From: a virus
Virus record (IMG/VR): IMGVR_UViG_3300022827_000018
Location: 1-40,962 of that record
Strand: one strand, 5' to 3'
DNA: 40,962 nt
The position numbers were made by a program, and so were the translations under genes. The notes beneath the pieces were generated by a model, which saw only the letters and a list, made by a program, of their open reading frames with translations, did no database searches and was not told the origin of the DNA. Shown here in pieces: positions 4,958 through 31,866 of the stretch. Numbering within the stretch: position 1 is the stretch's first letter; every line of letters starts with the position of its first letter.

Positions 4958-5392
4958 TTATTCTGAAGACCCACCGTCTAGAACATTAACTAAGTTTCTA
5001 TATTCTGTATTAGATGCACCGCCATCTAGCACTAGTGCAGTACTAACTGGAGCAGTAGTTGGGCGAGTAACCCCAGGAGAAACTTCTATCTGACCTTCTA
5101 CCACACGATATACAACCGTATCAGGAGATATTACTTCTACATCGTACACATACCTTCCAGGTTTGATTGTAGAAGTAGTGGCAGCAGATAATTCAATCTG
5201 GGCGATACCATTAGTAGCATCAATTATGTTTGCAACAAAATCAATTGCTTTGGTAGAAGAATAACTTTTTCTCATCTGAGCACGGATTTCAAAATCAGCA
5301 ATGCTGAATGCCGCGCCAGTGCCGCCCTCCAAATTAATGGTAGACATGAAGTCGGTGCCTTGATCTACAAAGAGATTTGCGTATACAGCCAT
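4958..5392 (-). CDS. Baseplate/fibre adaptor-like protein (BppU-N-like fold suspected)
   Basis: A 144-aa protein: MAVYANLFVDQGTDFMSTI, then an Ig-like beta pattern with an AQMRKSYSS..AIDF segment, IKPGRYVYDVEVISPD and VYRVVEGQIEVSPGVTRP. This alternation (inactive, IRAQ, GRYVYD, V.EG.v.v.pgvT) is typical of the upper-baseplate BppU N-terminal-like domain that anchors adhesins in many tailed phages; the family assignment is from memory of the pattern. The C-terminus carries two copies of LDGG(A/S)S (VLDGGASNTEYRN, NVLDGGSSE). An AGGAA Shine-Dalgarno sequence and an upstream TATAAATA box support the start. It is the first structural gene downstream of the radical SAM island. Confidence 0.7.
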   Translation of the reverse strand: MAVYANLFVDQGTDFMSTINLEGGTGAAFSIADFEIRAQMRKSYSSTKAIDFVANIIDATNGIAQIELSAATTSTIKPGRYVYDVEVISPDTVVYRVVEGQIEVSPGVTRPTTAPVSTALVLDGGASNTEYRNLVNVLDGGSSE

Positions 5393-5442: not shown

Positions 5443-5847
5443 TTATTCAATCATGAACTCTTCTAAAAAATACTCTCTAACATCTGGAACCATACCGGAG
5501 GTCATATCAAACTGATAATTTCCAATTTTTTCAAGAATTTCATCATAAATCTCCGGTGTATCATTATAACAAGTATAATATGGATCATTTCCAAACAAAA
5601 GATCCGGGTCACTTAAATACTCCAAAGGGTCTCCACCAAATTCTTCAGATATCCACTTAGCATAACATATACCTACCATATAACTTTTACTAGGATATAT
5701 CCACCCAATGTCCCTTTCAAAGAAATATCGTACCGCATCATCAACAATGTTTTTAGTTATAACAACTTCTTTATCATTTAAGTCATCAGAGTGTTCTTTA
5801 TTGAGTCTATGATATATTTCTTGTCTAATTTTCCATTCAGCAATCAT
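5443..5847 (-). CDS. Unknown acidic protein at the end of the radical SAM island
   Basis: A 134-aa acidic protein starting MIAEWKIRQEIYHRL. An in-frame ATG at 5856 is also possible, but an AAGGA Shine-Dalgarno sequence overlaps that codon and sits about 10 bases before 5847, so 5847 is preferred. It contains many aromatic and acidic residues (YFFERDIGWIYPSKSYM, DPLEYLSDPDLLFGNDPYYT) and no recognised motif, signal peptide or membrane helix. It overlaps the end of the 2OG-oxygenase gene by 11 bases, so it is probably translationally coupled to it, and it is the last gene before a late promoter box. Function unknown; it could belong to the island or be an unrelated small phage protein. Confidence 0.7.
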   Translation of the reverse strand: MIAEWKIRQEIYHRLNKEHSDDLNDKEVVITKNIVDDAVRYFFERDIGWIYPSKSYMVGICYAKWISEEFGGDPLEYLSDPDLLFGNDPYYTCYNDTPEIYDEILEKIGNYQFDMTSGMVPDVREYFLEEFMIE

Positions 5848-6424
5848 CGCTATCATCCTTATTATAAATTATCAAGTCTACCGGAATCGCAACTCTTAAC
5901 TGGCCAGATGAAAATGGATTCACAGAGTGGTATACATACCCTGGAAATACTACTACATCACCTGTCTTTGGTTTATAATGCAATGAATTAAACGGTTCTT
6001 GAAAATCCTGCATATAGCCCCTATTCGCATTTGATCTTGGATCATTTAATACTAACTCCCCACCTTCATCGTCACACCTTGCAAAAATATAAAATACTGA
6101 TACAAATGGGGCTCCAGAGTGATTATGTGTAGTTAGACCCTGATTAGGATTACCGTTTATCCAACCCTTATATGATATACTATAATCATTTAAATTTTTA
6201 TTCAATGCTTGATCAAAGTATTGAGAGAATATCGCATGGACCTCTTGTTTAAATTCTTTTATTACCAACTCATCAGAATTAAAAAGATTATCATTACCAT
6301 TAGTAAACTTATGTAAACTACCATTCTCTAATAATAAATTTAAAATCTTATCACATAATTCTTCACTTATTGAAGTTTTATATAATGGGGTAGGATATAA
6401 ATTGTTGATCCCTTGTTTTATCAT
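5837..6424 (-). CDS. 2OG-Fe(II) dioxygenase, prolyl-4-hydroxylase type
   Basis: A 195-aa protein with the layout of the 2OG-FeII_Oxy_5 group common in marine phages. It starts NLYPTPLYK, has an H100-N-H102 triplet in LTTHNHSGAPFVSVFYIF, then GGELVLNDPR, then GDVVVFPGYVYHSVNPF (H166) and R177 in QLRVAIPVDL. H100 or H102 and H166 would bind iron and R177 the 2-oxoglutarate; these are positional readings. Such enzymes hydroxylate protein or small-molecule substrates. It ends DDSDDC. The gene overlaps the downstream unknown gene and lies 63 bases after the last radical SAM gene, so it is plausibly part of the same modification pathway. Oxygenases of this type are also frequent in T4-like phages without such islands. 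Confidence 0.85.
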   Translation of the reverse strand: MIKQGINNLYPTPLYKTSISEELCDKILNLLLENGSLHKFTNGNDNLFNSDELVIKEFKQEVHAIFSQYFDQALNKNLNDYSISYKGWINGNPNQGLTTHNHSGAPFVSVFYIFARCDDEGGELVLNDPRSNANRGYMQDFQEPFNSLHYKPKTGDVVVFPGYVYHSVNPFSSGQLRVAIPVDLIIYNKDDSDDC

Positions 6425-6487
6425 AATGTAAATATTTTTTTTAAATTATTGTAATTGTTCAGTTCTATATAACAAAGTAGTATATCA

Positions 6488-7399
6488 TTATTTGTTTTTA
6501 TACCACTCTATCAGATTAAAATATCCATTACACCCGTTGCTCATATCGTTCACATATCGGTAATGTTCAGTTAAACACTTCCCATAGTATTTACAACTTT
6601 TACATATTTCGCTTACATTAGAACGCTTTTCTTTATTAGTCCATTCAATATATTCGTTAAATGAATCTAGTTCTAAGAAATATTCATTGTCGTTTAAGTC
6701 GAATTCTAATACTGCAAACTTTCCATTTGGGGTTATGTAAATATGGTCATCGCTAAATGCGTTCCTACTACCATCTAATACATCTTCAATGTAATATTCG
6801 TTGATAAACTCAAAGTTTTTATGTACTTCAGAAGATATCCATTTCTTAACAAATTCTTCATATTCGATATGAGTTACATTAAACGAGTTCGCCTGATTTG
6901 GTGAATATGGTTTAATTTCAACACTTTGTACACTAGAACACATGTTCATTGACATTATGAGTTCATCAACATTCATGGCAATAACTTTTGGGCTTGCAAG
7001 AACTAAAACTGCTACAGGAACTGGTGATAATAATAGGTTTTGATAAACTTTATCACTCTTTTCCCTCGCATCCCAATCATAACTGACTGAAAGATAAAAG
7101 TCGTCTTCATAGAAACCATCATGTAACATGGAATAGTTAGTTACTATGTTGATTTTATCAGAGTAATATTTTTTTATAGAGCGTTTGATCTCATAGAAAT
7201 AATCTTTCCTCAGGGCACCAATTTCACCACCATATAGGTCTATATGATTAATACTTGGTATCTGTGATAATAGTTCTTCTAGTTTACTCAGTTCAATCTT
7301 TTCTTGATTTGCAAGTTGTTCTTCAGTAAGATAACAGAAGTCGCATCTAAAATTACAAAAATATGTAGGGTTTATTGATACTGTAATAGGGTTATGCAT
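6488..7399 (-). CDS. Radical SAM enzyme G, short C-terminal Cys cluster
   Basis: A 303-aa radical SAM protein. C15-x3-C19-x2-C22 (FCNFRCDFCY) would hold the SAM-binding 4Fe-4S cluster, and GGE at 57-59 (DLYGGEI) is the SAM-methionine binding motif. SVSYDWDAREK near 104-114 matches the S-x-D segment seen in the sister enzymes. The C-terminus has C266-x2-C269-x5-C275 and C290, a shorter cluster set than full SPASM, probably holding one auxiliary cluster. Between them is a TPNGKFAVLEF strand typical of SPASM-family enzymes. The start codon overlaps the end of the upstream 229-aa gene by 8 bases. It is the last radical SAM gene of the island. Substrate unknown; the 172-aa Cys-His repeat protein is the best candidate. 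Confidence 0.9.
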   Translation of the reverse strand: MHNPITVSINPTYFCNFRCDFCYLTEEQLANQEKIELSKLEELLSQIPSINHIDLYGGEIGALRKDYFYEIKRSIKKYYSDKINIVTNYSMLHDGFYEDDFYLSVSYDWDAREKSDKVYQNLLLSPVPVAVLVLASPKVIAMNVDELIMSMNMCSSVQSVEIKPYSPNQANSFNVTHIEYEEFVKKWISSEVHKNFEFINEYYIEDVLDGSRNAFSDDHIYITPNGKFAVLEFDLNDNEYFLELDSFNEYIEWTNKEKRSNVSEICKSCKYYGKCLTEHYRYVNDMSNGCNGYFNLIEWYKNK

Positions 7400-8081
7400 A
7401 AAAATATGGGAACTCTTCAGATTGTATATGTTCTATTATATTAGATTTCCACTCATTAAACTTACTGATCTCTTTCTTATGGAAGAACCGCCCAGCAAGC
7501 ATATCAAATGGGTTGAACCTAAGTTCATATTTAGAATAGTCAAATGATATCTTTGCATAATAGTATTTCTTATATTCTCGCATCAATATCATATCTAAGT
7601 CACGGTATTCTAGATCCAACTCAGTATTTATTTCATCAAATTCTCTTCTACTATATTTCATGGAACCGTTATTCTGAACAGATAGTTTTATATTTGCCAT
7701 ACTTTCAAAATATTCTACCTTGGAATCTTTTGACAATTCCAATGTAAGATCAATCAACTCCGGTATAGCGATGGTTACATAATACTCTCGCCAATGATCT
7801 GTATGCCCAGCACATGAACTAACCGGAAAATACCCCTTACCTAGTAGTGCTGATACTAATGGAAATACTCCAGACTCGATCTGACTTTCAAACCTACTAT
7901 GATACGGACTAACCGTTACCGCAACATATGGTTCATTTATATTACTTGCATATATCTTACCATTAACATGTTCATAGTTTGGACATCTATTGAGTAATAT
8001 ATCCCTATAGTCAGACTCTGATATAGTGTCTTTCTGTTGTCTATATTCTACAACTTGTTTAATTGTAGTGTTCGTTAACAT
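7392..8081 (-). CDS. Unknown island protein with SSCAGH motif
   Basis: A 229-aa soluble protein I do not recognise. The most distinctive segment is VFPLVSALLGKGYFPVSSCAGHTDHWREYYVTI, with SSCAGH at 88-93 and further His at 96, suggesting a metal or substrate site; the SSCxG wording recalls the TYW3 tRNA-modification family (SSCSGR) but the rest does not obviously match. The C-terminal half is charged and aromatic (MREYKKYYYAKISFDYSKYELRFNPFD). It overlaps the radical SAM gene before it by 23 bases and the one after it by 8, so all three are almost certainly co-translated. It may act as a partner or substrate-binding protein of one of those enzymes; that is inference from context. Confidence 0.8.
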   Translation of the reverse strand: MLTNTTIKQVVEYRQQKDTISESDYRDILLNRCPNYEHVNGKIYASNINEPYVAVTVSPYHSRFESQIESGVFPLVSALLGKGYFPVSSCAGHTDHWREYYVTIAIPELIDLTLELSKDSKVEYFESMANIKLSVQNNGSMKYSRREFDEINTELDLEYRDLDMILMREYKKYYYAKISFDYSKYELRFNPFDMLAGRFFHKKEISKFNEWKSNIIEHIQSEEFPYFYA

Positions 8082-9132
8082 ACTCAGTTACCATTAGTTG
8101 ATCAGTCATTCCATTTGCGTCGATAATATCTTGTGCAATCGATTTCATACGAACACAATGTTCTTCAACCATCTGATGTTCTTTTAAGTCAGTAATTGTT
8201 TTCTTACATCCATTACATATATCAAACATTGGACAAGAGAAACAACTTTGCTTTAGATTATTAAGTTCGGCCGCAAACTTTAAAGGAAATACCTTTGCAC
8301 CCTGCATCTCTGAATCAAAATCTATACTATACTTACGATCATCACCAAATGCGCCGCATGAATAGTAGTCACCAGAAGGTTGTAGTGTACGAATACCAGA
8401 GTCACAATTTCTGTTCTGTGGGCATGTTGTATCACCTTTGGATAAGCGGCGCATCATTTGAGTTGTATTATATTCCCACTCGCTCAAACCCGCTTTCCAT
8501 ATTTTGACATATATCTCGTAAATCTTGGACAACATATAGGGCCTGCCTTCTTGACCCATTATGATGTTCTTAAACTTAACCGGAGGGCCAGAACTCAATG
8601 CATAGTTTAATTTACATACAACACCCATCTTCTTAGCGAGTTCCACATTCTTAATCGCAAGGTGTTCATTCTCCTCAGTGACAACTGCAATGAAGTCTGG
8701 GCGGTATCCGACTTTTTCTAACATCATATCACTGACGTTCCAGAAATCTTCCTCGCTGAATTCGCTAAGATCACCTTTTAACCTACCACCACCATATTGA
8801 AAAGATGTCGTGATACCCAATCTAGGGTGATTAAATAAGTCTACCCATTTATCCGGATTCTTATAGAAAGGCCATAAGTTAGAAGTGAAAGATATACTTG
8901 CACTAGAACCTATTTTATCCAAGTGTTTTATTAATTGCCAATAGTAATCTGGTTTCATCATCAGAGGGTCTCCCCCATTAACGATGATCGTAGCAGTCTC
9001 GGGGAACCTCTCTAGAAACTTGTAAATATAATCTAGGTCTAGTTCTAATGTCTTATCTTCAGTAATATGTGTACTAGAGCAAAATGTACATTTAAAATTA
9101 CATCGCTCTGTTGGTTTAATTATCAGGTCCAT
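8059..9132 (-). CDS. Radical SAM/SPASM enzyme F
   Basis: A 357-aa protein. C11-x3-C15-x2-C18 (RCNFKCTFCSS) is the radical SAM signature, and TIIVNGGDPLM at about 48-58 carries GGDP in the SAM-binding position. Cysteines 237, 243 and 259 (TTCPQNRNCDSG, YYSCGAFGD) and C297-x2-C300-x5-C306-x2-C309 with C326 form a SPASM-like domain able to bind two auxiliary Fe-S clusters. The segment LQPSGDYYSCGAFGD is the usual SPASM strand-turn. SPASM enzymes mostly modify ribosomal peptides (thioether, C-C or epimerisation chemistry). The start overlaps the end of enzyme E by 17 bases and the C-terminus overlaps the next gene by 23, placing it firmly in the operon. The substrate is not shown by the sequence. 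Confidence 0.92.
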   Translation of the reverse strand: MDLIIKPTERCNFKCTFCSSTHITEDKTLELDLDYIYKFLERFPETATIIVNGGDPLMMKPDYYWQLIKHLDKIGSSASISFTSNLWPFYKNPDKWVDLFNHPRLGITTSFQYGGGRLKGDLSEFSEEDFWNVSDMMLEKVGYRPDFIAVVTEENEHLAIKNVELAKKMGVVCKLNYALSSGPPVKFKNIIMGQEGRPYMLSKIYEIYVKIWKAGLSEWEYNTTQMMRRLSKGDTTCPQNRNCDSGIRTLQPSGDYYSCGAFGDDRKYSIDFDSEMQGAKVFPLKFAAELNNLKQSCFSCPMFDICNGCKKTITDLKEHQMVEEHCVRMKSIAQDIIDANGMTDQLMVTEYVNEHYN

Positions 9133-10180
9133 AATGTAATATATTCTCAGATTCCATTCTATTAAAATATTCTCTAAACAAGCACTCTTGTGTTCTCTCT
9201 AACTTCGCCCAATCTGCTTGAACAAAACATCTAAATCCACAACGGTCAAACCACTTGCAACTTAGACAGTCATTTCTTTCTAAATGAGCTTCTATTATAT
9301 TATCATTAGAGTTATAGTCGACTTCAGTTTCAAATACATCTTCTTCATAATCCATATACCTACAAGTAACTTCTCTACCGCTTGGTAGAATCGTTGTCTT
9401 ATTCATAGAATAGCAAGTCATACGATTATGTTCATTTTCTATCAGGTCTTTGATAGGATATATCTCAGGATAATTCTTAGAGATGTACATCATACAGTCT
9501 AACATTTCTGTCTCAGAAGGCATCATCTTTTCGGCAGATAATTCTGGAACATAATAATCAAAATATAGAGTATAGTTTTTATACAGTACATCTTTAAAGA
9601 ACTTATCTTTGTTTAACAAGATTTTTCGTATAGCGGGGCGGGTCAATACAAAACCAATTACAGTTATATATTCACCAAATATCTTAAGGTTATGTTCATA
9701 TTGTAGAGTTCTATTTAGATCAAACCCACGCCCAGCAAAGTCATATGAAGTTGATATAAACGCATTATCATTACCATAACTACGCATCTTCATTAATAAG
9801 GAAACTGCCCTATCCGACTGATTAAAGATAAGGTTAGTTACCCAATTAAAACGCACAGTTTGTGCATTAGAATTACACCAATCGGTTATTCGTTTATAGA
9901 AATCCCAATATTGCGTAAATACTTCATCGGGAACTAAATCATTAAAGATCTCACCACCCATGACATTAACTATGTGGCTTTCCATAGTAGAAGTTTTCAT
10001 GAATTCAATTACTTGATCAGATTTTTCTACGATCGTATTCATACCCTCTTCAGAGTCGTGATCTTGCCCACAAAAAGCACAACTTAAATTGCAGAACTCA
10101 AATAAGTGAAGTTCTATCTCGCTTGAGTTTGGAATCTTATCTCGAAGTACGTGTTTTAAATATTCGCTGTTGCTACTCAT
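9116..10180 (-). CDS. Radical SAM/SPASM enzyme E
   Basis: A 354-aa protein starting MSSNSEYLKHVL at 10180. An upstream in-frame ATG at 10216 would overlap the previous gene by 44 bases; a GGAAA sequence before 10180 and the 8-base overlap there favour this start. C30-x3-C34-x2-C37 (FCNLSCAFCGQD) and GGE at 75-77 (VNVMGGEIF) mark the radical SAM core. FISTSYDFAGRGFD near 141-153 parallels the S-x-D segments of its sisters. C256, C273 (VTCRYMDYE), C305-x2-C308-x5-C314-x3-C318 and C333 match a full SPASM domain with two auxiliary clusters. It is closest in style to enzymes F and G downstream. Confidence 0.92.
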   Translation of the reverse strand: MSSNSEYLKHVLRDKIPNSSEIELHLFEFCNLSCAFCGQDHDSEEGMNTIVEKSDQVIEFMKTSTMESHIVNVMGGEIFNDLVPDEVFTQYWDFYKRITDWCNSNAQTVRFNWVTNLIFNQSDRAVSLLMKMRSYGNDNAFISTSYDFAGRGFDLNRTLQYEHNLKIFGEYITVIGFVLTRPAIRKILLNKDKFFKDVLYKNYTLYFDYYVPELSAEKMMPSETEMLDCMMYISKNYPEIYPIKDLIENEHNRMTCYSMNKTTILPSGREVTCRYMDYEEDVFETEVDYNSNDNIIEAHLERNDCLSCKWFDRCGFRCFVQADWAKLERTQECLFREYFNRMESENILHYGPDN

Positions 10181-10592
10181 AAATTTCCATATAGTCGGAC
10201 ATGTCACCAATAACAAATGTATTTGGTAGTTTATGACAATACTTAGGTTCGTTTCGGGTGTGGATTATTACTAATTTAAAAACGTTAGACCACTTTTCCT
10301 CTTTCAACATAGAAGATACCAATATATCGAATACTTCTTTTATAGAAGTTAACCCTAACTCATCAGTAAGATAAAGTATATTGTTATCTATTAACCTAAA
10401 CTCCATAGAGATAGGATAGTAGAGATGATCACCATGTTTGTAAAATACTATGGTCGATATATCAAACAATGCCTGCTTGAATTTAGAATATTCTACTTTA
10501 GCAATTCCATCTTCTTGCACAGATGTAATCGTACAAGACAATATTTCTGTTCCGGGATTTCGTATGAGGTGATCACTTTTACCTTGTATCAT
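10173..10592 (-). CDS. Unknown island protein, 139 aa
   Basis: A 139-aa protein (MIQGKSDHLIRNPGTEIL...) with an N-terminal beta-rich half (ILSCTITSVQEDGIAKVEYSK) and a mixed C-terminal half ending FVIGDMSDYMEIYE. No motif, signal peptide or membrane segment is visible. It overlaps the 249-aa gene upstream by 4 bases (ATGA) and radical SAM gene E downstream by 8, so it is embedded in the island transcript. Small proteins tightly coupled to radical SAM genes are often leader-binding or chaperone partners, but there is no RRE-type sequence pattern I can point to here. Confidence 0.75.
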   Translation of the reverse strand: MIQGKSDHLIRNPGTEILSCTITSVQEDGIAKVEYSKFKQALFDISTIVFYKHGDHLYYPISMEFRLIDNNILYLTDELGLTSIKEVFDILVSSMLKEEKWSNVFKLVIIHTRNEPKYCHKLPNTFVIGDMSDYMEIYE

Positions 10593-11338
10593 AAGCAGTC
10601 TACCTCAGAAAGTAAAATATCCTTTGCCCAGCGGATTGGTAACTTAGATGAAACGTCTCGATTAGATGATATCAAAACAGAATTGGGTTCTGCTGTAATA
10701 ACTGTCTGTAATGACGCGTCTGTCATATGCAAAGTGCCAATATCAGATTCATCAAAACTTAAAGATGCTACAACGTTAGAATATAAGAACAGTTTGGATA
10801 TTTCATCTGAAGTGTATATTGATTCTATATACGACTTACAAAATTCGTAAGAACATTGTAACTCCATAACGCTTGTTTCTAATAGGTCATCGTACCCTAA
10901 TAATAATGCATCCTTGGTGAACCTAATCAACGACCCCATAAAAAAATAAGTGGTGTCTTGTTGCAGCGCGGTAACTAAACTGTCTATCTGCATCAGACAT
11001 ATATCATAATACTGCGCTTGGGTCATCCAATTGCGATACTTCTTATCCAATAATTCATAAACTGCGTAATCTGATCTAGATTTATTTCTATCATCTAACG
11101 AGTTGTGCTTACGGTTTGTATATGATGTCCATTCTGTACGAGTATATTTTTCTTCTATAGATATTTGAGACAAGAATATACGAACCAGCCCATTCATGCT
11201 GAGTTGTCCTTGCTCATAGTTCCTAGTGCCAAGTGTGAACCTATAGAACCCAGGAAATAGGTCTCCTGAAGAAAGAATCGTTTTTACAAATTCTTCTTCA
11301 GTTAATTCTGTGCCTAATTTTAGTAAATCAACTGCCAT
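10589..11338 (-). CDS. Unknown island protein, 249 aa
   Basis: A 249-aa mostly helical-looking protein starting MAVDLLKLGTELTEEEF. It contains SRSDYAVYELLDKKYRNWM and MELQCSYEFCKSYIESIY segments and ends LLSEVDCL. No catalytic motif is recognisable, and no signal peptide or membrane helix is seen. It overlaps radical SAM gene D by 11 bases and the 139-aa gene by 4, so it is translated together with them. It probably serves the same pathway, for example as a scaffold or substrate carrier; that is based on context only. Confidence 0.78.
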   Translation of the reverse strand: MAVDLLKLGTELTEEEFVKTILSSGDLFPGFYRFTLGTRNYEQGQLSMNGLVRIFLSQISIEEKYTRTEWTSYTNRKHNSLDDRNKSRSDYAVYELLDKKYRNWMTQAQYYDICLMQIDSLVTALQQDTTYFFMGSLIRFTKDALLLGYDDLLETSVMELQCSYEFCKSYIESIYTSDEISKLFLYSNVVASLSFDESDIGTLHMTDASLQTVITAEPNSVLISSNRDVSSKLPIRWAKDILLSEVDCL

Positions 11339-12431
11339 ATGGGAGAGTCCCCATAGCGTTTACAACGTGCATCGCGTCTTTTGCAACCAAACAGTCTTTA
11401 ATACCATGTATGTCCATAAGATGTAGAATGCCTCTATCAACACAAGACCCTAATAATGGACAATCACCACATTCGGTTTTATCGCCGACGTTCATATATT
11501 GATCAAGTTGAATTTTTTCTTCATACTGTTCAAACTCTTTTGCATCATATTCTACAATCGGCATTTTCAATTCTGGTATGAATGATACATAACGCTCATA
11601 CAGTAGGGGAGAATAATAAAACTCACCATTCTTCCAGTTATATTGTTTTTCAATTAAGGAGTCATTCAATCTACCAAAGGAGAATCGTAGGTACTCACCC
11701 TTTTCTTCAGAAACAATCGATCCGTTAAAAATGCGTTTGATACGCTCTGCCGCTTCTTTAAATTCTTCAGATTGCAGACCTTCATCTTTTCTACCCAAAG
11801 AGAAGTTAAAATCGATAGTTGTTTCAAACAAATGTTCGACTTTCTTATGCATGTAATCATAATCTTTAAGCATTTCTGCTAATTTAGTATCGTCGTAATT
11901 AAATACGTTCATGATACCAAACCTACGAACAGGCGTTGGCCAGTCTAACATTTTGATAAACTGCTCTTGATGTTTCTGTAATACACTAAGGTACTTTGCG
12001 TTATCGATCTTCTCAGGTTCGATAATAATATTAACCTCTAACTCCATTTCAGAATAGTCATCTTTTAGTATTGAAGCAACTAGTTCCGCCTTACCTAAGT
12101 CTAAGTAAGTGGTCTGAAATGATATTCTCTTAAACTTATTGAGGATTTTCTTAACCCTGTTGTCTGTCAATACCGAGTATGTGTTATTTGCAGATAGAAA
12201 ATCTGTCGGTGCAATGAATGCTATGAAAGGTTTGTATGAATTTTCTTCACTAAAAGAATTCATGATCTTCTCCAATTGATCAAATGTATGATCATTCATT
12301 GGTTCAGAACCTTCTTTATTAACGTGACAACCTTTACACTTAAATTGACATCCGTTTAGAAGTTCAAAATTTAAGTTGAAATAGAATCCATCGGATTGGT
12401 TCAAGTTACCTGATGCTAGATACGCGTCCAT
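11328..12431 (-). CDS. Radical SAM enzyme D, PTD-type (no GGE)
   Basis: A 367-aa protein. C28-x3-C32-x2-C35 (GCQFKCKGCHV) is a canonical radical SAM cluster motif. The usual GGE/P position after beta-strand 2 is instead FIAFIAPTDFLSANN (PTD at 75-77), the same replacement seen in enzyme B (LLPTDIF), so D and B form a subfamily of their own. The C-terminus has only C321-x2-C324-x5-C330 and C347, suggesting a single auxiliary cluster or a structural metal. It lies between the unknown 243-aa gene (6 bases upstream) and the 249-aa gene (11-base overlap). The chemistry cannot be predicted; the altered SAM-binding loop is unusual. Confidence 0.88.
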   Translation of the reverse strand: MDAYLASGNLNQSDGFYFNLNFELLNGCQFKCKGCHVNKEGSEPMNDHTFDQLEKIMNSFSEENSYKPFIAFIAPTDFLSANNTYSVLTDNRVKKILNKFKRISFQTTYLDLGKAELVASILKDDYSEMELEVNIIIEPEKIDNAKYLSVLQKHQEQFIKMLDWPTPVRRFGIMNVFNYDDTKLAEMLKDYDYMHKKVEHLFETTIDFNFSLGRKDEGLQSEEFKEAAERIKRIFNGSIVSEEKGEYLRFSFGRLNDSLIEKQYNWKNGEFYYSPLLYERYVSFIPELKMPIVEYDAKEFEQYEEKIQLDQYMNVGDKTECGDCPLLGSCVDRGILHLMDIHGIKDCLVAKDAMHVVNAMGTLPYGS

Positions 12432-12437
12432 TAAGAG

Positions 12438-13169
12438 TTACCCCTTGACTGAATTTAGTAGTTCATTAATGTCTAGAGGAATTTTCCCATCAAACATTAG
12501 TTGAATAATTGTTGGAAATGTGTTTTCTTCAACGTTATAGTAATGGAACAACGAGTGACCCTTAAACATATGACCATCAAACTGATGTTCAAAGAAAGAA
12601 ACTTTAGACTCTTGGTCTGAATTGAAATACAACCCTAAGAAGTTGGGAATCTTAAACATGTTAACGACATTAAGACCAACATAGTTGGGATCTGAAATAG
12701 GTTCAAACTGTTCTTTTAATTTCAACTCTTTATTAATATCTTCAAAACAATACAACAAATACAGCATAGTAGAATCGATAAAATGTGTCCACCTATCAAC
12801 CATTTCTTTCCGAGTATTAATATATTCTTCCACTAATTCTTCTGAGAGATATGCATTCTTCATAATAGATGCGGTATCTAACCCCTTTGCCTTCAATAAA
12901 ATATGAGCGACAATTGTATTTAGAAAATGAATATCAGAAATTGCTTTAATTTCCATATAAGAGTCTATCAAAGAAAATATTTTCTCTTTGTCGAATCCCT
13001 TAGCGATGTACACATCTGATGGGACATCTAGATTAGAAAGATATGTCAAGAACACTTTACCAGCAAGTTTACTATTTTCATAATCAACTTCAAAGAAAAT
13101 AGTTTTATCTTGGAAATATTCTTTAATACTATCGATAGAAATGGGAACAATGGTTTTACGGATGTTCAT
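12438..13169 (-). CDS. Unknown island protein, 243 aa
   Basis: A 243-aa soluble protein (MNIRKTIVPISIDSIKEYF...) with a helical middle (KNAYLSEELVEEYINTRKEMVDRW) and an aromatic, His-rich stretch FFEHQFDGHMFKGHSLFHYYNVEE around 196-219 that could bind metal or form a beta-hairpin. No known family recognised. It overlaps radical SAM gene C by 14 bases and ends 6 bases before radical SAM gene D, so it is bracketed by a C/D enzyme pair and likely works with them. Confidence 0.78.
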   Translation of the reverse strand: MNIRKTIVPISIDSIKEYFQDKTIFFEVDYENSKLAGKVFLTYLSNLDVPSDVYIAKGFDKEKIFSLIDSYMEIKAISDIHFLNTIVAHILLKAKGLDTASIMKNAYLSEELVEEYINTRKEMVDRWTHFIDSTMLYLLYCFEDINKELKLKEQFEPISDPNYVGLNVVNMFKIPNFLGLYFNSDQESKVSFFEHQFDGHMFKGHSLFHYYNVEENTFPTIIQLMFDGKIPLDINELLNSVKG

Positions 13170-14286
13170 TATAATTTTCTCTCAATTCAGTTAGGTTCGG
13201 TTTTGCTTTATTCAAGTATATTGGTATGAACACATCTAGTTCATTTCGTATTCTACTTATAACAGATTTCGAAAGAGGGCACTCGTCAGTATCATCGAAT
13301 AAACTCGCATCACAGTTGCCTCCACAGATATCATAGTGTTCACATTCAAAGCACATTGTATGGTGCTCCATCTCAGCAAGTTTCTTTATAATAATCTCTA
13401 GAGACTTTTCTTCAAATTTCGCCCAGTCATTACGCATTTCATGTACTGTTGAAAATGGTTCAATGTAAGTTTTATCTGGACATAATCCAACCGTTCCATT
13501 TGGATTCATCGTGAATGTTCGCTTATCACAGCAATTACATTTACACTCAAATAAGTTACCCGACATTAGGGTTTTAGTGAATAAGTCGATTTGAGGTAAA
13601 CACCAACTAGTTTCATTAGTAGTGTAGTAATCAACAAGTTTGTTTAACCATGCAGCCCACTTTTTATTATTGGGTCTTAAGTTACTTGTCTTTGCATCAA
13701 AAGTTGTTAGGAGTTCAAAGTCAATAGAATCTACTCCGGGAAACTTTTCTACAATTTCAATTGGATCGTAATTTAATAAGTTCTTCTGTGCAGTAATAGC
13801 AATGTGGACATTAACTCCGGCGTCGATTAATTTATGCAAGTTTTTAAAAAACAAGTCCTCTTGTTGAGTTTTCTTGTTAATTGCAATTGATCCAAACCTA
13901 ATATCTGCGTCCCAACTTACGCCGATAGTATTTCTATACTCGGTTTTTATAAAATCTATAAACCTATCATCAACTTTATATACTAGGTTAGTCTGTGGAA
14001 CAATATCGATTTTTGCATAGCCAAAGTATTTCCTTATCAAGTCGTTCACAGACTTCAAATATGAAAGAGGGGCTAGGAAAGTTTCTCCGCCGTGGATATA
14101 GAATGTAACCTTCTCTGGGTTAACATTGTCTTTTATTGAAGACAGATAATCTTCGATTAAATGTAACTCAGTAAGCGCAATTTTGTCCTTGTTACCTAAT
14201 GTAAAACAATGATCACAGTTTAGGTTACATCCCTGAACAACTCTAATATATACTACATTAAATTCACTTGAAAATATACTACTCAT
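13156..14286 (-). CDS. Radical SAM/SPASM enzyme C
   Basis: A 376-aa anaerobic-sulfatase-maturase-like enzyme. C20-x3-C24-x2-C27 (GCNLNCDHCFT) is the radical SAM motif, followed by TFYIHGGETFLAP (GGE 66-68) and GVSWDADIRF at about 122-131. The C-terminal SPASM region has C248, C250, C252, C253, C269 (NPNGTVGLCPD), C312-x2-C315-x5-C321-x3-C325 and C336. The HGGExFLAP and G(T/V)SWDxxIRF wording is nearly the same as in enzyme A, so A and C are clear paralogues. The gene starts 17 bases after the 345-aa gene and overlaps the 243-aa gene by 14. Enzymes of this type usually modify Cys, Ser or Thr side chains of peptides; all three residues fill the repeat of the 172-aa protein. Confidence 0.93.
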   Translation of the reverse strand: MSSIFSSEFNVVYIRVVQGCNLNCDHCFTLGNKDKIALTELHLIEDYLSSIKDNVNPEKVTFYIHGGETFLAPLSYLKSVNDLIRKYFGYAKIDIVPQTNLVYKVDDRFIDFIKTEYRNTIGVSWDADIRFGSIAINKKTQQEDLFFKNLHKLIDAGVNVHIAITAQKNLLNYDPIEIVEKFPGVDSIDFELLTTFDAKTSNLRPNNKKWAAWLNKLVDYYTTNETSWCLPQIDLFTKTLMSGNLFECKCNCCDKRTFTMNPNGTVGLCPDKTYIEPFSTVHEMRNDWAKFEEKSLEIIIKKLAEMEHHTMCFECEHYDICGGNCDASLFDDTDECPLSKSVISRIRNELDVFIPIYLNKAKPNLTELRENYNEHP

Positions 14287-14303
14287 AACAAATTCATTTT
14301 CAG

Positions 14304-15341
14304 TTATTTCCTTAGAATAAATTTAGACAAGTCCTTTGTCGAACCTTTTCTATGCCTATCATAACAGTATGTAGCAAAAACTTGATTACACTTATCCATA
14401 AAGCGCGTTCTAGTATACGAGCATCCATAGTTTCTAGCAATGTCTCGTAGCAACAGACCAGGATAATCATCATGATTGATCATATAATTAACCTCGCTCA
14501 TATCATCATACTCATGACCCCAAACTTCTGCTAACTTTACCCAACATGGATCAAAGGTAGTATATGGGTAAGTTGCGCGAATATACTCAGTACCTTCTTT
14601 AAATCTAGGGTCAACTGTCCAACTAAGGAATTTACTTTTCTTGAGGCCTCCTTCAACGCCGCCCAATGGGGTTTTAATAGTAGGGTCTAGTTTTTCAGCA
14701 TCGATATTACCTGACAATATCTCATACTTCAAGTGCTCAAGTTCGTCTACCCAATTATCCCAAGTTAAGAATTCAATCTTTTTAAATAACTCAGTCTTAT
14801 ATTTAGAACGGTTGTTCGCCATGTAATCTGCAAGCAAATATTCAAAACTAACAGTACTCTTATCAATTGCAAGTAATGTTACACTGTCTTCAACATTATT
14901 AAATAGTTGAGATATCTCATACTCATTTTTAAACTCTGCTTGTTCTAGTAAGTTCTTATTCCGGTAAGATTCCATATAAGAATATAACCGTACAGTCTCG
15001 ACCCAACTCGTATGAAGTTTAAATACAGATGCTGCGTCGATAGAATCGCTAAAAATATGCTTCCAATATTGAACTTGCAATTGGGTCATAATGTCCGGAG
15101 AAACAAATACAACTAATTTAGAATTCCCCTGATATCCATATAGATACGCCCAAAATGATTCTACTGAACTTTCAAACTTTTCATCTAACATAGATTCAAA
15201 ACTTCTATATTGGCCAAGTACTTCGTTTGAAGAAACCTGCATTGGATACTCGTTCAATCTAGAAGATGCGGTTATAAAGTCGCCCTTGTGTTCGAACTTA
15301 TAATCATATTCCAAATAAACTTTTTTAAATATGTGAAACAT
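14304..15341 (-). CDS. Unknown island protein immediately after the Cys-repeat gene
   Basis: A 345-aa protein (MFHIFKKVYLEYDYKFE...) I do not recognise. The first part has alternating strands and helices (KLVVFVSPDIMTQLQVQYWKH near 96-115). The middle contains LGGVEGGLKKSKFL, and the C-terminal third is aromatic and Cys-containing (FDPCWVKLAEVWGHEYDDM, ARNYGCSYTRTRFMDKC, TYCYDRHRKG). No membrane segments or signal peptide are seen. It starts 3 bases after the stop of the Cys-His repeat gene, with GAAGAAG from that gene's RGRR codons serving as its ribosome binding site, so the two are tightly coupled. It is a candidate for a partner, carrier or acceptor of the Cys-His repeat protein. The role is inferred. 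Confidence 0.8.
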   Translation of the reverse strand: MFHIFKKVYLEYDYKFEHKGDFITASSRLNEYPMQVSSNEVLGQYRSFESMLDEKFESSVESFWAYLYGYQGNSKLVVFVSPDIMTQLQVQYWKHIFSDSIDAASVFKLHTSWVETVRLYSYMESYRNKNLLEQAEFKNEYEISQLFNNVEDSVTLLAIDKSTVSFEYLLADYMANNRSKYKTELFKKIEFLTWDNWVDELEHLKYEILSGNIDAEKLDPTIKTPLGGVEGGLKKSKFLSWTVDPRFKEGTEYIRATYPYTTFDPCWVKLAEVWGHEYDDMSEVNYMINHDDYPGLLLRDIARNYGCSYTRTRFMDKCNQVFATYCYDRHRKGSTKDLSKFILRK

Positions 15342-15344
15342 ATA

Positions 15345-15863
15345 TTATCTTCTTCCTCTTGAACCGTGACATGAACTATGACATGAACTATGACATACTC
15401 TTAAATCTATTACGGGCGCATTATACTGGGCATCGTCGAATACTGTTCTGACCGATGACATAAAAGCATCCATTCCACTACTAGTAATTATTCCATCTAC
15501 TTTAGCACCGCTAACATAACTAATCAGATGACCATTATTAACTATATATGCATCATTTAGTCTACACACGTCAGTTCTATCTTCAGAAGTTCCTCCTGCA
15601 TCAAGTATCAATCCAGATCTTGCTCTGCGGAATGACGTAGTTAGTAACGCATATGCCTTGACTTGTGCCATAATAGTAGATGCTGTGATCAACGATTCAG
15701 ACAAAACACTAGCAGGCATCGTTGTGACATCCCTTGGGCCTAATGCAGCAACATTAATATTAGTGGGCCTGTTAGCATCCCAGAATACAGCAGTATTATA
15801 CGCTGGAGTTTTTACCAAAGTCCAGTATTTATCTGCAACAGATTGTTTAGTTATATTTCCCAT
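15345..15863 (-). CDS. Putative radical-SAM-modified precursor with C-terminal Cys-His-x-Ser repeat
   Basis: A 172-aa protein with a strong ribosome binding site (AGGA, 7 bases before the ATG). Residues 1-156 form an ordinary-looking folded region (FWDANRPTNINVAALGPRDV, SLITASTIMAQVKAYALL, VCRLNDAYIVNNG). The last 16 residues are CHSSCHSSCHGSRGRR, that is C157-H-S-S, C161-H-S-S, C165-H-G-S, then RGRR. Only one other Cys exists (C100). Short Cys/Ser/His repeats at the C-terminus of a protein encoded between radical SAM genes are typical of RiPP precursors, and HxS repeats recall the HxsA/HxsB/HxsC systems, though the leader is unlike any I know. It could instead be a virion protein whose tail is modified, or a metal-binding tail. 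The reading as substrate is inference. Confidence 0.8.
   Translation of the reverse strand: MGNITKQSVADKYWTLVKTPAYNTAVFWDANRPTNINVAALGPRDVTTMPASVLSESLITASTIMAQVKAYALLTTSFRRARSGLILDAGGTSEDRTDVCRLNDAYIVNNGHLISYVSGAKVDGIITSSGMDAFMSSVRTVFDDAQYNAPVIDLRVCHSSCHSSCHGSRGRR
15360..15395 (-). repeat. Three 12-bp tandem repeats encoding Cys-His-x-Ser
   Basis: Minus-strand units TGTCATAGTTCA, TGTCATAGTTCA and TGTCACGGTTCA lie head to tail at the 3' end of the 172-aa gene. Two are identical and the third differs by two bases (Ser to Gly and a silent His change). The identical copies suggest recent duplication, so repeat number may vary between relatives. Confidence 0.95.
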
Positions 15864-15871
15864 AATTTATC

Positions 15872-16900
15872 CTATAGTTCTTTATAAAGTTTGTGACATC
15901 CTAGGTCGAATTCTTCTGCTATTGCAAAATAATACTTACCCATACAATGCTGTAAATTATCACACTCAGCACATTCTTCTATTATAGGTATATTTATATC
16001 AGTTATTTCACCGTAACAATCCAAGAATCCATTGTACGAAGGTTCTTGTAGCAAGTAGATAGGTTTTTCTATGTGTGTATATTCATCAAACGGTACTATG
16101 GGATTGGTATATATCCTATTCGGAGAACCAATAAACGTGAAAGAAGGTTTACGCATAAAGGTTCTGTCGTTATATTGTTTTACGAATGACGCGTCACTTT
16201 GATAATAGTTTCCAAAGGTATTAACTGTCGCTATACTTTTTGCCATCATGGATTTTTTCTTATCTTCTGAGATATCAGTGTTGTATAAAAAAGTAAAGTT
16301 TAGTTCCACAATGCCGTCCTCTGATATCTCAGATAACATACTTTTCAATTTAGTAACTTCTCGTTCAGTCAGAGCAAACCCTGTATTGATAGCAAGATTG
16401 ATAACAATTCGATCACCATATTTCTCATTCAGTATGTTTATATTTCTTCTTATTAACATTTGATAGTTGATGTCAAATAATCGGTTTATCACCAAATTAA
16501 CTTGAAGTTCTACTCGTATATCAGAGTTTACACTATACACTATATCAAACAGTTTATCATCATGGCCGTTCTCTAGAGTTGAAGCAATGCCTGCATATGA
16601 AAACCGAGATAACATTTCAACAAATTCTGGTATATCAAATAAGTTATAATTGTCGGGGTTGTCGAATATATCGGTTGGTAATAAGTAACAAGTTTCCATC
16701 TTATACCCGTTACTAATCATATCTAGACATAGGTCTCGAGCCGAAGACCAATCATCATAAGTGTTGTTATTTTTTTTATAAAAACAGCCCTTACAGTCCA
16801 TGGAGCAATGATTAAGTGACATTACCCTAAACTCTACAAGTTTGTCTGGGTCTCCATATAAGTCATATGCAGTTGAGTAAGGATTTTCTCTAGTACTCAT
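15872..16900 (-). CDS. Radical SAM enzyme B, PTD-type (no GGE)
   Basis: A 342-aa protein. C32-x3-C36-x2-C39 (HCSMDCKGCFY) is a radical SAM motif, preceded by the usual beta-strand (VEFRVMSLN). The SAM-binding loop reads CYLLPTDIFDNPDN (PTD 75-77) rather than GGE, as in enzyme D. The C-terminus carries C310-x2-C313-x5-C319 and C335, one auxiliary cluster at most. Its ATG overlaps the end of enzyme A by 4 bases and its stop is 8 bases before the Cys-His repeat gene, so A, B and the putative substrate are consecutive in one transcript. It contains a TATAAATA box near its 3' end that could serve the next gene. Chemistry not predictable. Confidence 0.88.
   Translation of the reverse strand: MSTRENPYSTAYDLYGDPDKLVEFRVMSLNHCSMDCKGCFYKKNNNTYDDWSSARDLCLDMISNGYKMETCYLLPTDIFDNPDNYNLFDIPEFVEMLSRFSYAGIASTLENGHDDKLFDIVYSVNSDIRVELQVNLVINRLFDINYQMLIRRNINILNEKYGDRIVINLAINTGFALTEREVTKLKSMLSEISEDGIVELNFTFLYNTDISEDKKKSMMAKSIATVNTFGNYYQSDASFVKQYNDRTFMRKPSFTFIGSPNRIYTNPIVPFDEYTHIEKPIYLLQEPSYNGFLDCYGEITDINIPIIEECAECDNLQHCMGKYYFAIAEEFDLGCHKLYKEL
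15991..15998 (-). promoter_or_regulatory. Possible late promoter box inside radical SAM gene B
   Basis: TATAAATA on the minus strand, about 130 bases before the ATG of the Cys-His repeat protein. It could give that gene extra late transcription. It lies in coding sequence, and some octamers of this composition are expected by chance, so support is weak. Confidence 0.3.
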
Positions 16901-17949
16901 AATTGCTTAATCATCAGGGTTGGATATTTTTTAACAGTAGTAGAAAGACCAGCAAGGTGCCTCATTAAAGTCTTAGGAGCACCACATATATCACCCTGCC
17001 ATTCTAGTTGATGACAGTCACTGTTACAGTATTGAAAAACTTCGCAGGTATAACAACGCGGATCTCGAGACCTCTCACACGCAATATTATTGATTCGTAT
17101 TGGTGAATCAAATAACTCTTGCATGGTATGCTCGATTCTACCAAAGTGGTCTTCAGGCGCACTATTTGGGCAACCTGATATAGAACCATCTGCGTTGAGT
17201 GTAAGTAATTTCTCCTCACAGTCACGACAGAAAGTTCCTTCAGAAGTAGAACCACTTTCAAATTTAGAATAAACAGTCTCTAGAAAGTCATTATCTAACC
17301 AACCTCTTGCATCATGTTCTATCATCTGTTCATGCATTAACATAAACCACGCATCTTGCTCGATATTAGACGGAAATATTTCGGGAAACAGTTTAGCATT
17401 TCCATTGTTGGTTAAACGCTCTAAACTCATTTCCTTTATACCTAATGACTTTACATATTCTAATAAATCAATAGGTTCTATGTCTAGTGTATCTTTGGTG
17501 ACGCTTACAAACAGCTTGATATCTACCCCAAGAGATAACAGTTTACGCACATTCTTTTCCCAAAGTAGGCGCTGTTTCTCGTTAGCAAACCTAATGTTTG
17601 GGTCCCAACTTGTTCCAATTCTGCTATTGAGTGGGCCTTGTATAAACTCAATGATCTCATCAGTTAGTTTAAATACTAGATTAGAAGTTACACCCCAGCT
17701 CATATTTTCCCATAATTTATCACAGGCAGAATGAACTTTCCAGAATTCTTCGATAGGCGCGAGGAAAGGTTCACCCCCGTGAAATTCAAAGTGTATATTT
17801 GGTAACTCGGGTTTATATTCATGTAGCCGAGTTATCCAGTCTATGGTTTCGTCAGTATTCCAATATATCTTGGCACCCTTTGAACCACTCGTAAAACAGT
17901 GTTTACAATTAAGGTTACAAGTTTCTGTAGTCTTCAAATATATTAACAT
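16897..17949 (-). CDS. Radical SAM/SPASM enzyme A
   Basis: A 350-aa enzyme of anaerobic-sulfatase-maturase style. C11-x3-C15-x2-C18 (TCNLNCKHCFT) is the SAM cluster motif; FEFHGGEPFLAP has GGEP at 58-61, and GTSWDPNIRF lies at 112-121. SPASM cysteines are C241-x2-C244, C260 (NADGSISGCPN), C299-x2-C302-x5-C308-x3-C312 and C322, enough for two auxiliary 4Fe-4S clusters. It is the first radical SAM gene of the island, 14 bases after the JmjC-like gene, and its stop overlaps the start of enzyme B (ATGA). It is paralogous to enzyme C. Substrate unknown, but the putative precursor is two genes downstream. Confidence 0.93.
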   Translation of the reverse strand: MLIYLKTTETCNLNCKHCFTSGSKGAKIYWNTDETIDWITRLHEYKPELPNIHFEFHGGEPFLAPIEEFWKVHSACDKLWENMSWGVTSNLVFKLTDEIIEFIQGPLNSRIGTSWDPNIRFANEKQRLLWEKNVRKLLSLGVDIKLFVSVTKDTLDIEPIDLLEYVKSLGIKEMSLERLTNNGNAKLFPEIFPSNIEQDAWFMLMHEQMIEHDARGWLDNDFLETVYSKFESGSTSEGTFCRDCEEKLLTLNADGSISGCPNSAPEDHFGRIEHTMQELFDSPIRINNIACERSRDPRCYTCEVFQYCNSDCHQLEWQGDICGAPKTLMRHLAGLSTTVKKYPTLMIKQL

Positions 17950-17963
17950 AATATCGCTTATAA

Positions 17964-18446
17964 TTATCTTTCGGAAAGAAACATCTCTAATCCAAAACTC
18001 AGTATCAATGATTCTTCTTTATTCAATGCTTGATGCATAGTTCCCTTTGAAATCATAATTGATTCCCCCTCTGGTATACAAGATTCTCCAGTATATTCGA
18101 TCATCATATATTTTTTACCATACACTGTATGTATAATCACATCCTCGGTGTCCATATGCATAGGGAAACTTATAGCACCCTTTGGAGACATAAACGCATG
18201 ACATGTTACTATACCCTTGCCTATGTGATTATTCTCCACAGCGATCCGAATACACTCGTTGTGAAGGGCCCTGTCATACTTCTCCATTGACTCAACCTTT
18301 ATGGTTTTGTCTAAGTTAGAATGTAATTCGCCAAGGGAGTCAATGTATATCTGACGCCCTCGGCGATCTATGTAAGAAATTATATGTTGGTCAAATACTA
18401 CCTGAGATTGTATAAATGTATCAAATTCGTATTTGTTTAATAACAT
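17964..18446 (-). CDS. JmjC/cupin-like Fe(II) oxygenase
   Basis: A 160-aa protein whose second half has the JmjC/cupin layout: SFPMHMDTEDVIIHTVYGKK, with H97-x-D99 as two metal ligands and the typical (q)v.GkKy.m(i)E strand after it, then GESIMISKGTMHQA with H138 as the third ligand. This arrangement is that of small 2OG-Fe(II) hydroxylases that act on proteins or amino acids. It is shorter than most JmjC hydroxylases, so it may be a minimal version or a non-catalytic metal-binding cupin. Its ATG overlaps the stop of the 971-aa fibre gene by one base, placing it first in the island and co-translated with the fibre, which makes the fibre another possible substrate. Confidence 0.75.
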   Translation of the reverse strand: MLLNKYEFDTFIQSQVVFDQHIISYIDRRGRQIYIDSLGELHSNLDKTIKVESMEKYDRALHNECIRIAVENNHIGKGIVTCHAFMSPKGAISFPMHMDTEDVIIHTVYGKKYMMIEYTGESCIPEGESIMISKGTMHQALNKEESLILSFGLEMFLSER

Positions 18447-31569: not shown

Positions 31570-31866
31570 TTAATTTGCAAACACATTAGGAGACCCAGCA
31601 GTGATAGCACCTCCGTCGGTGGAGTCACCAACTCTTGCAGTAGGAATACCATTGGTAAAGACATTAGGAGACCCCACGTTGATTACAGCGCCGTGGGGTA
31701 CGCATACACTACCCGCAAGGATCGTATGCGGCGCTGTAGGGTCTCCTTGACGCTCTACTCCGATCCCATTAGCAAACACATTCCCCGAACCACCTATCAC
31801 CGTAGTGGTGGCATCACATCCATGTCCTGTTGTGGTAGGATCACCTATTCTTGCTACTGCTGGCAT
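31570..31866 (-). CDS. 5.4: PAAR-repeat spike tip protein (gp5.4-like)
   Basis: A 98-aa PAAR protein: MPAVARIGDPTTTGHGCDAT with later GVERQGDPTAPH and IPTARVGDSTDGG repeats, each followed by NVFxNG turns. Its His and Cys residues would bind the single metal ion that sharpens the spike apex. It sits between the gp5-like hub and gp25, where T4 carries gp5.4. It caps the central spike that pierces the outer membrane. Confidence 0.93.
   Translation of the reverse strand: MPAVARIGDPTTTGHGCDATTTVIGGSGNVFANGIGVERQGDPTAPHTILAGSVCVPHGAVINVGSPNVFTNGIPTARVGDSTDGGAITAGSPNVFAN

Follow-up and report, generated by a model that had tools for sequence, protein, structure and literature searches.

Why should a virus with T4-like tail genes devote sixteen consecutive genes, set between two genes of its tail-fibre apparatus, to radical S-adenosylmethionine (SAM) enzymes and their companions, and on what do these enzymes act? 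The window, as the whole stretch of DNA analysed here is called, is the complete 40,962-base IMG/VR virus record IMGVR_UViG_3300022827_000018, in which T4-like baseplate, tail and neck genes are encoded. The 16 genes lie tightly packed on its minus strand, between a gene for a 971-amino-acid tail-fibre protein and one resembling tail-fibre assembly genes (Table 1), and their spacing suggests a single shared transcript; they are referred to below as the operon. Seven encode radical SAM proteins (A to E, Z1 and Z2, spanning 6488-17949), two encode Fe(II) oxygenase-like proteins, one encodes a protein of 172 amino acids, TAIL, and six encode proteins that are unrecognised. A first-pass annotation made from the letters alone had picked out seven open reading frames with the CxxxCxxC signature, every one of which was found again where it had been placed; the JmjC/cupin-like and 2-oxoglutarate (2OG)-Fe(II) oxygenases, both of which have Pfam matches above cutoff; and the Cys-His repeat protein of 172 amino acids, whose C-terminus is indeed CHSSCHSSCHGSRGRR. 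Its count of five unrecognised proteins has to be raised to six (those at 5443, 7392, 10173, 10589, 12438 and 14304).

The answer favoured here is that the operon is probably, though by no means surely, a pathway dedicated to modifying a displayed tip of TAIL that is used in attachment or penetration. The parts of this proposal differ in strength. Co-occurrence and tip conservation argue strongly for the C-terminal tip of TAIL being the substrate, there is a moderate case for the product being on the surface of a virion or cell, and what is proposed for the type of reaction and for a role in attachment is speculative.

What sets TAIL apart is its last 16 residues, with the consensus CHxSCHxSCHxSRGRR (window 15348-15395; among the related loci, which carry L numbers here, the tail of L032 also ends CHSSCHSSCHGSRGRR). 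A degenerate DNA scan of IMG/VR for motifs of the type CHxxCHxxCHxxRGRR-stop gave at least 119 stretches, and in every translated match the motif was the exact C-terminus. All 127 unique C-termini share the three CH pairs and the residues of R-x-R-R, and Ser fills the fourth repeat position in 121/127, 104/127 and 114/127 for repeats one to three. Most of these 127 were found with a pattern that already specified Cys, His and Arg; independent evidence therefore comes from the placing of the motif exactly at the C-terminus, from the Ser positions and from the set of loci reached by starting from an enzyme, described below. Mean identity over 171 distinct TAIL genes is 82% in the last 16 residues and only 16% in the 40 that precede them. 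Could this constancy reside in the nucleic acid? The tip codons are free to vary (Cys about 50:50, Arg with up to six codons, Ser from both codon families, His also variable) while the peptide is fixed, so that selection acts on the peptide and not on DNA, and a 3'-terminal nucleic-acid element, DNA or RNA, is ruled out. In the tails of L005, L010, L077, L090, L091 and L102 the third repeat has one more Cys, as CHCARGRR or CHCNRGRR; in the fuller loci of this subgroup, L005 and L077, E is followed by two Z1 genes.

The tip is borne by what is predicted to be a folded domain. The AlphaFold2 model of the window TAIL (predicted local distance difference test, pLDDT, 84.7; predicted template-modelling score 0.76) is folded to about residue 155, with a tip pLDDT of about 53, and an iterated profile from which the last 18 amino acids had been removed groups 99 tails, among them those of Bdellovibrionota and of Agrobacterium phage Atu_ph07. 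TAIL has no match in NCBIfam. Compared with viral structure models, its clear matches are its own kin, the Atu_ph07 protein included, and a few unnamed phage proteins. Three BFVD entries from Myoviridae sp. ctijX18 (A0A8S5USJ8, A0A8S5USJ7 and A0A8S5USV2, of 504-660 amino acids) have a TAIL-like fold (E ~1e-3, probability 1.00), and the domain may therefore occur in larger proteins. A tblastn search of cultured phages with the window TAIL and two other tails gave no match because, pairwise, only the tip is conserved; the relatives in cultured phages were found via searches with the enzymes and P12.

Are the enzymes ever found apart from the tip? Starting from TAIL, a radical SAM gene of these families was present within the stretch taken in 116/122 loci, and in the remaining six (L022, L024, L065, L090, L096 and L100) the contig ends near TAIL. 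Starting instead from enzyme A, a relative of which is encoded in 376 viral loci, TAIL was present in 76 of the best 80, these being the closest ones; in the other four the contig ends 127-281 bases past the enzyme, which makes 76/76 of the testable loci. In 68 of the best 80, TAIL lies 3-69 bp downstream of A on the same strand. Several contigs are common to the TAIL-first and enzyme-first sets. The same enzymes without any Cys-repeat protein, an arrangement that the first-pass annotation had named as telling against its proposal, were thus looked for, and every testable locus among the best 80 proved to have TAIL. As to background rarity, relatives of A are encoded in 7/50,697 phage records, representing six distinct phages, and in 4/4 of those records inspected TAIL is the gene next to A. 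In 29 loci the sequence continues for at least 8 kb past TAIL; these have 3-8 radical SAM genes each, together with P12 (29/29), C (25/29) and D and E (22/29). P12 is the most constant companion of TAIL; its AlphaFold2 model has a pLDDT of 94 and a fold search against the PDB gave no significant solved relative, for which reason it cannot be called a recognition element.

Are these enzymes of a kind that would act on peptides? The CX3CX2C cysteines are invariant in the clade alignments of all seven families, and on this aligned position all seven can be placed in the radical SAM superfamily; clade members had been pre-filtered for CX3CX2C anywhere in the protein, so it is the aligned position, not mere presence, that is the evidence. 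Chance CxxxCxxC motifs are ruled out by this conservation across clades. PF04055 matches above its curated cutoff for 2/7 (6488 and 8059) and below it, with E<0.003, for 9116, 11328, 13156 and 16897; the Pfam search gave no match for Z2 (15872). PHROG 1802, 'radical SAM', matches 5/7 (E 9e-34 to 6e-67), and Z2 and Z1 fall in one iterated family, both searches ending at 111 matches in 49 loci. In a tree of 330 relatives A, C, D (49 sequences/48 loci) and E form near single-copy clades, B (6 loci) and Z2 (4 loci) rare ones, and Z1 a multi-copy clade (89 sequences/43 loci). Clade alignments give A, B and C the full SPASM pattern CX15-16C...CX2CX5CX3C...C (in C the last cysteine is kept in 64/65 relatives and the others are invariant) and D a SPASM-type seven-cysteine set in which CX2C replaces the CX3C of A, B and C, so that the four SPASM-like clusters previously noticed are borne out. 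The other three enzymes have auxiliary clusters as well: E, Z1 (87/89) and Z2 (C310/313/319/335, invariant in the clade of 4) have a single four-cysteine cluster, CX2CX5CX14-16C, half of the SPASM set. With the SPASM model TIGR04085, A, B and D score just below cutoff and C weakly. The nearest named families in NCBIfam and the PDB are mostly peptide or protein maturases, all matched far below family cutoffs, and A is distantly similar to the anaerobic sulfatase-maturase structures 4k36-4k39.

Where would a modified tip be found? Tail-fibre, baseplate or virion structural genes are neighbours of the operon in the window and lie upstream in several viral relatives, and TAIL directly abuts a very large gene in L022, L074, L096 and L105 (that of L105 has no PHROG match). 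The operon is present in six cultured jumbo phages. Mass spectrometry of Atu_ph07 virions gave 131 proteins, most of them from coding sequences (CDS) 31-76, 170-215 and 284-329 (PMC6102473). The major head protein is gp215 by either numbering, which makes CDS 170 TAIL (gp170), and the virion cluster CDS 170-215 accordingly begins at TAIL, with enzymes gp165 and gp168 outside it and enzyme A (gp171) within its range; this cluster boundary suggests that TAIL is present in the Atu_ph07 particle. Such surroundings bear on the proposal that the C-terminus of TAIL is a sacrificial peptide scaffold on which a cofactor, metallophore or toxin is built for later release, in the manner of the precursors of pyrroloquinoline quinone and mycofactocin. 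The number of enzymes, 3-8 radical SAM proteins plus oxygenases, is large for decorating 16 residues, and the tip is flexible in the TAIL model, both of which a scaffold would accommodate. Yet the genes around are tail and virion genes, with TAIL at the start of an Atu_ph07 virion cluster, the scaffold would be a conserved, folded domain of 155 amino acids, and neither protease nor exporter is recognised in the operon. We consider release from a scaffold rather unlikely.

Viruses are not the sole carriers. A tip scan of 84,980 species genomes gave 19 matches, of which 16 are real, about nine of them from Bdellovibrionota or relatives; those in Frankia, Pseudoalteromonas and Bordetella (3/19) are due to chance, being outside a suitable reading frame. 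The strict motif is present in 9/369 Bdellovibrionota genomes (a reversed control pattern gave 0) and P12 in 8/192 (0/14 control genomes). The operon is sporadic on these chromosomes and is flanked there by housekeeping genes (pyruvate kinase, cytochrome oxidase, acyl-CoA enzymes), so that these copies are not simply phage contigs. A phage-only distribution is ruled out, and the scope of a pathway first described as virus-encoded has to be widened to bacterial chromosomes. Several copies adjoin S74-chaperoned fibre genes: in L163 and L171 one neighbouring gene has a Peptidase_S74 fibre chaperone together with the N-terminal methylation signal of pilins, in L164 the S74 domain is alone, and the L163 protein matches PHROG tail-fibre families. 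A protein of about 570 amino acids is also present in Bdellovibrionota copies (L164:16571-18310, L165:3568-5280), and its weak radical SAM and B12-binding domain matches in L165 hint at a possible methylation step.

Tips of Bdellovibrionota may be variant (YCHSNHCSHSNHGSRGRR in L171, WCHSSHSSHSSHSSRGRR in L172, CHSNCYTPPPKSRSRR in L170), and the variants retain His better than Cys, as in CHSSHSSHSSHSSRGRR of L172. Upstream of P12 in L170 a short protein (10293-10607) ends CNSNFICHSNCYTPPPKSRSRR, a strongly degenerate or differently processed tip. Is the CH repeat, then, merely a metal- or heme-binding tip, with its overlapping CX3CH, while the enzymes modify something else such as the adjacent tail fibres? 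Both Cys and His coordinate metals well, there are phage spikes and fibres whose tips are capped by a metal, and the better retention of His would fit. However, a metal tip would not need a dedicated set of radical enzymes, nor would it account for A directly adjoining TAIL in so many of the closest loci, and the terminal R-x-R-R varies no more than the ligands do. This too we hold to be unlikely.

Two architectures recur. One is cup-A-TAIL-P12-P14-C-D-E(-P54, OX); the other has two tandem short tails (about 127 amino acids) and mainly Z1-type enzymes, and includes L001, L019, L024, L025 and L028 as well as three contigs of a Rhodobacteraceae metagenome-assembled genome (L132, L136, L141). The window follows the first with B, Z1 and Z2 in addition, and is partly like L083 and the Bdellovibrionota loci L166 and L168. 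In Burkholderia phage FLC6 two genes annotated as dihydrofolate reductases, gp77-gp78 (L122:16307-17520), are inside the operon. The tandem tails of several loci could be taken for a diffusible modified peptide made in infection and acting in or around the host, perhaps as a weapon aimed at competing bacteria or phages, and radical SAM-modified peptides are often antimicrobial. Against this, no leader, protease or transporter is recognised, the tip is near-identical across phages of very different hosts, and its gene lies in the tail module; the idea seems quite improbable. Viral Fe-S or auxiliary metabolism, which is how T4-like marine viruses rich in radical SAM genes have been interpreted in print and which is in keeping with the genome with 12 radical SAM genes and Fe-S carrier genes described in PMC5332604, or alternatively nucleic-acid hypermodification, would leave the invariant tip and its near-obligate adjacency to A unexplained, has closest profiles mostly of peptide or protein maturases to contend with, and merits very little credence.

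If, as preferred here, the operon serves to modify a displayed TAIL tip, how might it work? The folded N-terminal domain would carry or anchor the tip, and the core enzymes A, C, D and E, with B, Z1 and Z2 as accessories, would act on its Cys/His/Ser repeat, probably making cross-links, for example thioether or carbon-carbon ones. SPASM enzymes form cross-links of both these types, and the regular CHxS repeat, with three each of Cys, His and Ser, would suit either. OX and cup may further hydroxylate the tip and P12 may present the substrate. In phages the finished tip would be shown outside the particle with the tail-fibre apparatus, and in predatory cells with a pilin- or S74-type fibre protein. 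Once displayed it would help to attach to, or to penetrate, the target bacterium, a function proposed because phages and predators both must attach to or enter another bacterium. Several considerations weigh on the other side. The modified peptide is predicted, P14, P12 and P54 have no assigned role, and some of the enzymes could act on a neighbouring fibre in place of TAIL. The fold searches found no solved relative of TAIL and no known fibre fold; the presence of gp170 in virions is read from the cluster boundary; and the nearest structural genes in some jumbo phages (FLC6, DT01) are not clearly fibres. The wider thought, that a radical-rebuilt tip on diverse virions and predatory bacteria is a new surface device and a common means to grip or breach bacteria, is tentative, a real possibility that we would put somewhat short of probable.

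The genes are collected in Table 1. Over the island (2-kb segments, 6001 to 18000) G+C is 0.31-0.36, and most flanking segments are higher. The listed start of C is a TTG, and its true start is probably an ATG 12 codons further on, near 10180. P73 has a Cys/His-containing stretch, SSCAGHTDHW, is without a confident family match, and has its family members in loci of the same operon type. Elsewhere in the window (31570-31866) a PAAR-type protein is encoded (phrog_281, E 1e-22), and the central spike thus probably already has a conventional metal-binding cap.

Table 1. Genes of the operon and its two immediate neighbours, in order of transcription of the minus strand
Feature	Window position	Strand	Evidence
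tail-fibre gene, immediately upstream of the operon	18446..21361	-	PHROG tail-fibre families, best E 2e-29
cup, cupin/JmjC-like oxygenase, first operon gene	17964..18446	-	PF08007 JmjC_2 E 1.5e-5, above cutoff; family member in 72 loci, mostly just upstream of A
A, radical SAM/SPASM, core	16897..17949	-	CX3CX2C and 7 SPASM cysteines, invariant in all 77 relatives; clade of 77 sequences/76 loci
Z2, divergent radical SAM, one auxiliary 4-Cys cluster, rare	15872..16900	-	cysteines invariant in clade of 4
TAIL, 172 amino acids, proposed substrate	15345..15863	-	predicted folded domain 1-155 and C-terminal tip CHSSCHSSCHGSRGRR
P14, conserved protein	14304..15341	-	phrog_36207 E 5e-11; family member in 79 loci
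B, radical SAM/SPASM, rare	13156..14286	-	full SPASM cysteine set, invariant across clade of 6; TIGR03942 E 1.4e-18, below cutoff
P12, most constant TAIL partner	12438..13169	-	phrog_20767 E 6.5e-63; family member in 122 loci
Z1, divergent radical SAM, one auxiliary cluster	11328..12431	-	phrog_31457 E 5e-93; PF04055 E 2e-4, below cutoff
P105, unrecognised	10589..11338	-	28-31% identity to L166, L169; relatives seen only in Bdellovibrionota loci
P101, unrecognised	10173..10592	-	32-38% identity to L166, L168; relatives seen only in Bdellovibrionota loci
C, radical SAM/SPASM, core	9116..10216	-	clade of 65 sequences/64 loci
D, radical SAM/SPASM, core	8059..9132	-	PF04055 E 3e-8, above cutoff; 11/12 cysteines invariant in 49 relatives
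P73, accessory protein	7392..8081	-	family member in 8 loci
E, radical SAM, one auxiliary cluster, core	6488..7399	-	PF04055 E 4e-7, above cutoff; clade of 40 sequences/40 loci
OX, 2OG-Fe(II) oxygenase	5837..6424	-	PF13759 2OG-FeII_Oxy_5 E 1.7e-12, above cutoff; family member in 39 loci
P54, small conserved protein, last operon gene	5443..5856	-	phrog_20737 E 5e-55; family member in 29 loci
tail-fibre assembly-like gene, immediately downstream	4958..5392	-	phrog_3304 'L-shaped tail fiber protein assembly' E 3e-23

Hundreds of bacterial viruses and a few predatory bacteria carry this enzyme set beside the gene for the tip. If the proposal is right, viruses fit part of the infecting particle with non-natural chemistry made by radical reactions, and host recognition or entry would have a layer invisible to sequence-based studies of receptor binding. 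PHROG families now marked as of unknown function (31457, 20767, 20737, 36207 and 35144) would gain one, the many radical SAM genes of some marine and jumbo phages would be partly explained, and one common device would link phages to predatory bacteria. It would also provide new peptide-modifying enzymes, in a small set that lends itself to testing.

How does the operon compare with what has been described? Its parts have been seen before and left unexplained. The marine T4-like genome TARA_ERS488813_N000010, with 12 radical SAM genes and Fe-S carrier genes, was read as being concerned with Fe-S metabolism (PMC5332604); it is likened here from its description as radical SAM-rich, marine and T4-like, and the available portion of that paper proposes no substrate. 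With that genome, and with relatives of the present operon reaching eight per locus, the initial impression that no described phage had so many radical SAM genes cannot stand. The annotations of Burkholderia phages FLC6 and S13 have a cluster of cupin, Fe-S oxidoreductase or radical SAM, and 2OG-Fe(II) oxygenase genes (PMC8066314, PMC11898562), and Ralstonia phages RP12 and RP31 have an unbroken run of radical SAM, Fe-S oxidoreductase and MoaA-like genes (PMC5468394). These are the same kind of genes, listed as accessory only, with the tail protein unnamed and no function proposed. Among open-access papers none was found on the operon, or on a connection of its enzymes with the CH-tail protein or with predatory bacteria. 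Bdellovibrio surface adhesins of the mosaic adhesive trimer (MAT) type are S74-chaperoned, tail-fibre-like proteins (PMC10769870), and S74-domain genes flank several Bdellovibrionota copies of the operon; the predicted fold of TAIL is different from theirs, and the accessible part of that report has neither a CH-tail protein nor radical SAM enzymes.

The first-pass annotation had thought of a pathway for ribosomally synthesized and post-translationally modified peptides (RiPPs) or for protein modification. Of these, modification is strongly supported by the co-occurrence, and a gene-encoded precursor with a conserved core is found beside the modifying enzymes, as the 76/76 co-location and the tip logo attest. 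In place of a short unstructured leader, however, the N-terminal 155 residues of TAIL are predicted to fold; and no RiPP recognition element (RRE)-type domain is apparent, P12 being without a significant solved relative. Profile searches recognised no protease, transporter or exporter in the window operon, of whose proteins six are unassigned. With its folded N-terminal domain, no recognisable RRE in P12 and a context of virion or surface display, the system does not resemble a classical RiPP. The His-Xaa-Ser system (HxsA/B/C/D) is alike in the His-x-Ser repeats of its target, which the Bdellovibrionota tip CHSSHSSHSSHSSRGRR recalls, and in having more than one radical SAM enzyme. Membership in it was rejected, the matches of D to HxsC (E 7e-8, 31.7 of 267.9 bits) and of A to HxsB (E 1e-10, 40.5 of 370 bits) being weak only and TAIL having no match; the invariant Cys and the terminal RGRR are not known to be part of that system. 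The nearest known relations are the radical SAM/SPASM maturases (the anaerobic sulfatase maturase, DynA of dynobactin, PapB and GrrM/OscB), to which the best NCBIfam and PDB similarity points, and which share CX3CX2C, the SPASM cysteines and an adjacent gene for the putative substrate. Unlike them, the window enzymes score far below the cutoffs of those families, occur three to eight together, are encoded by a virus, and have as putative substrate a folded domain of 155 amino acids with a C-terminal tip. There is thus a substantial chance that the system is categorically new, beyond a variant of radical SAM/SPASM peptide maturation.

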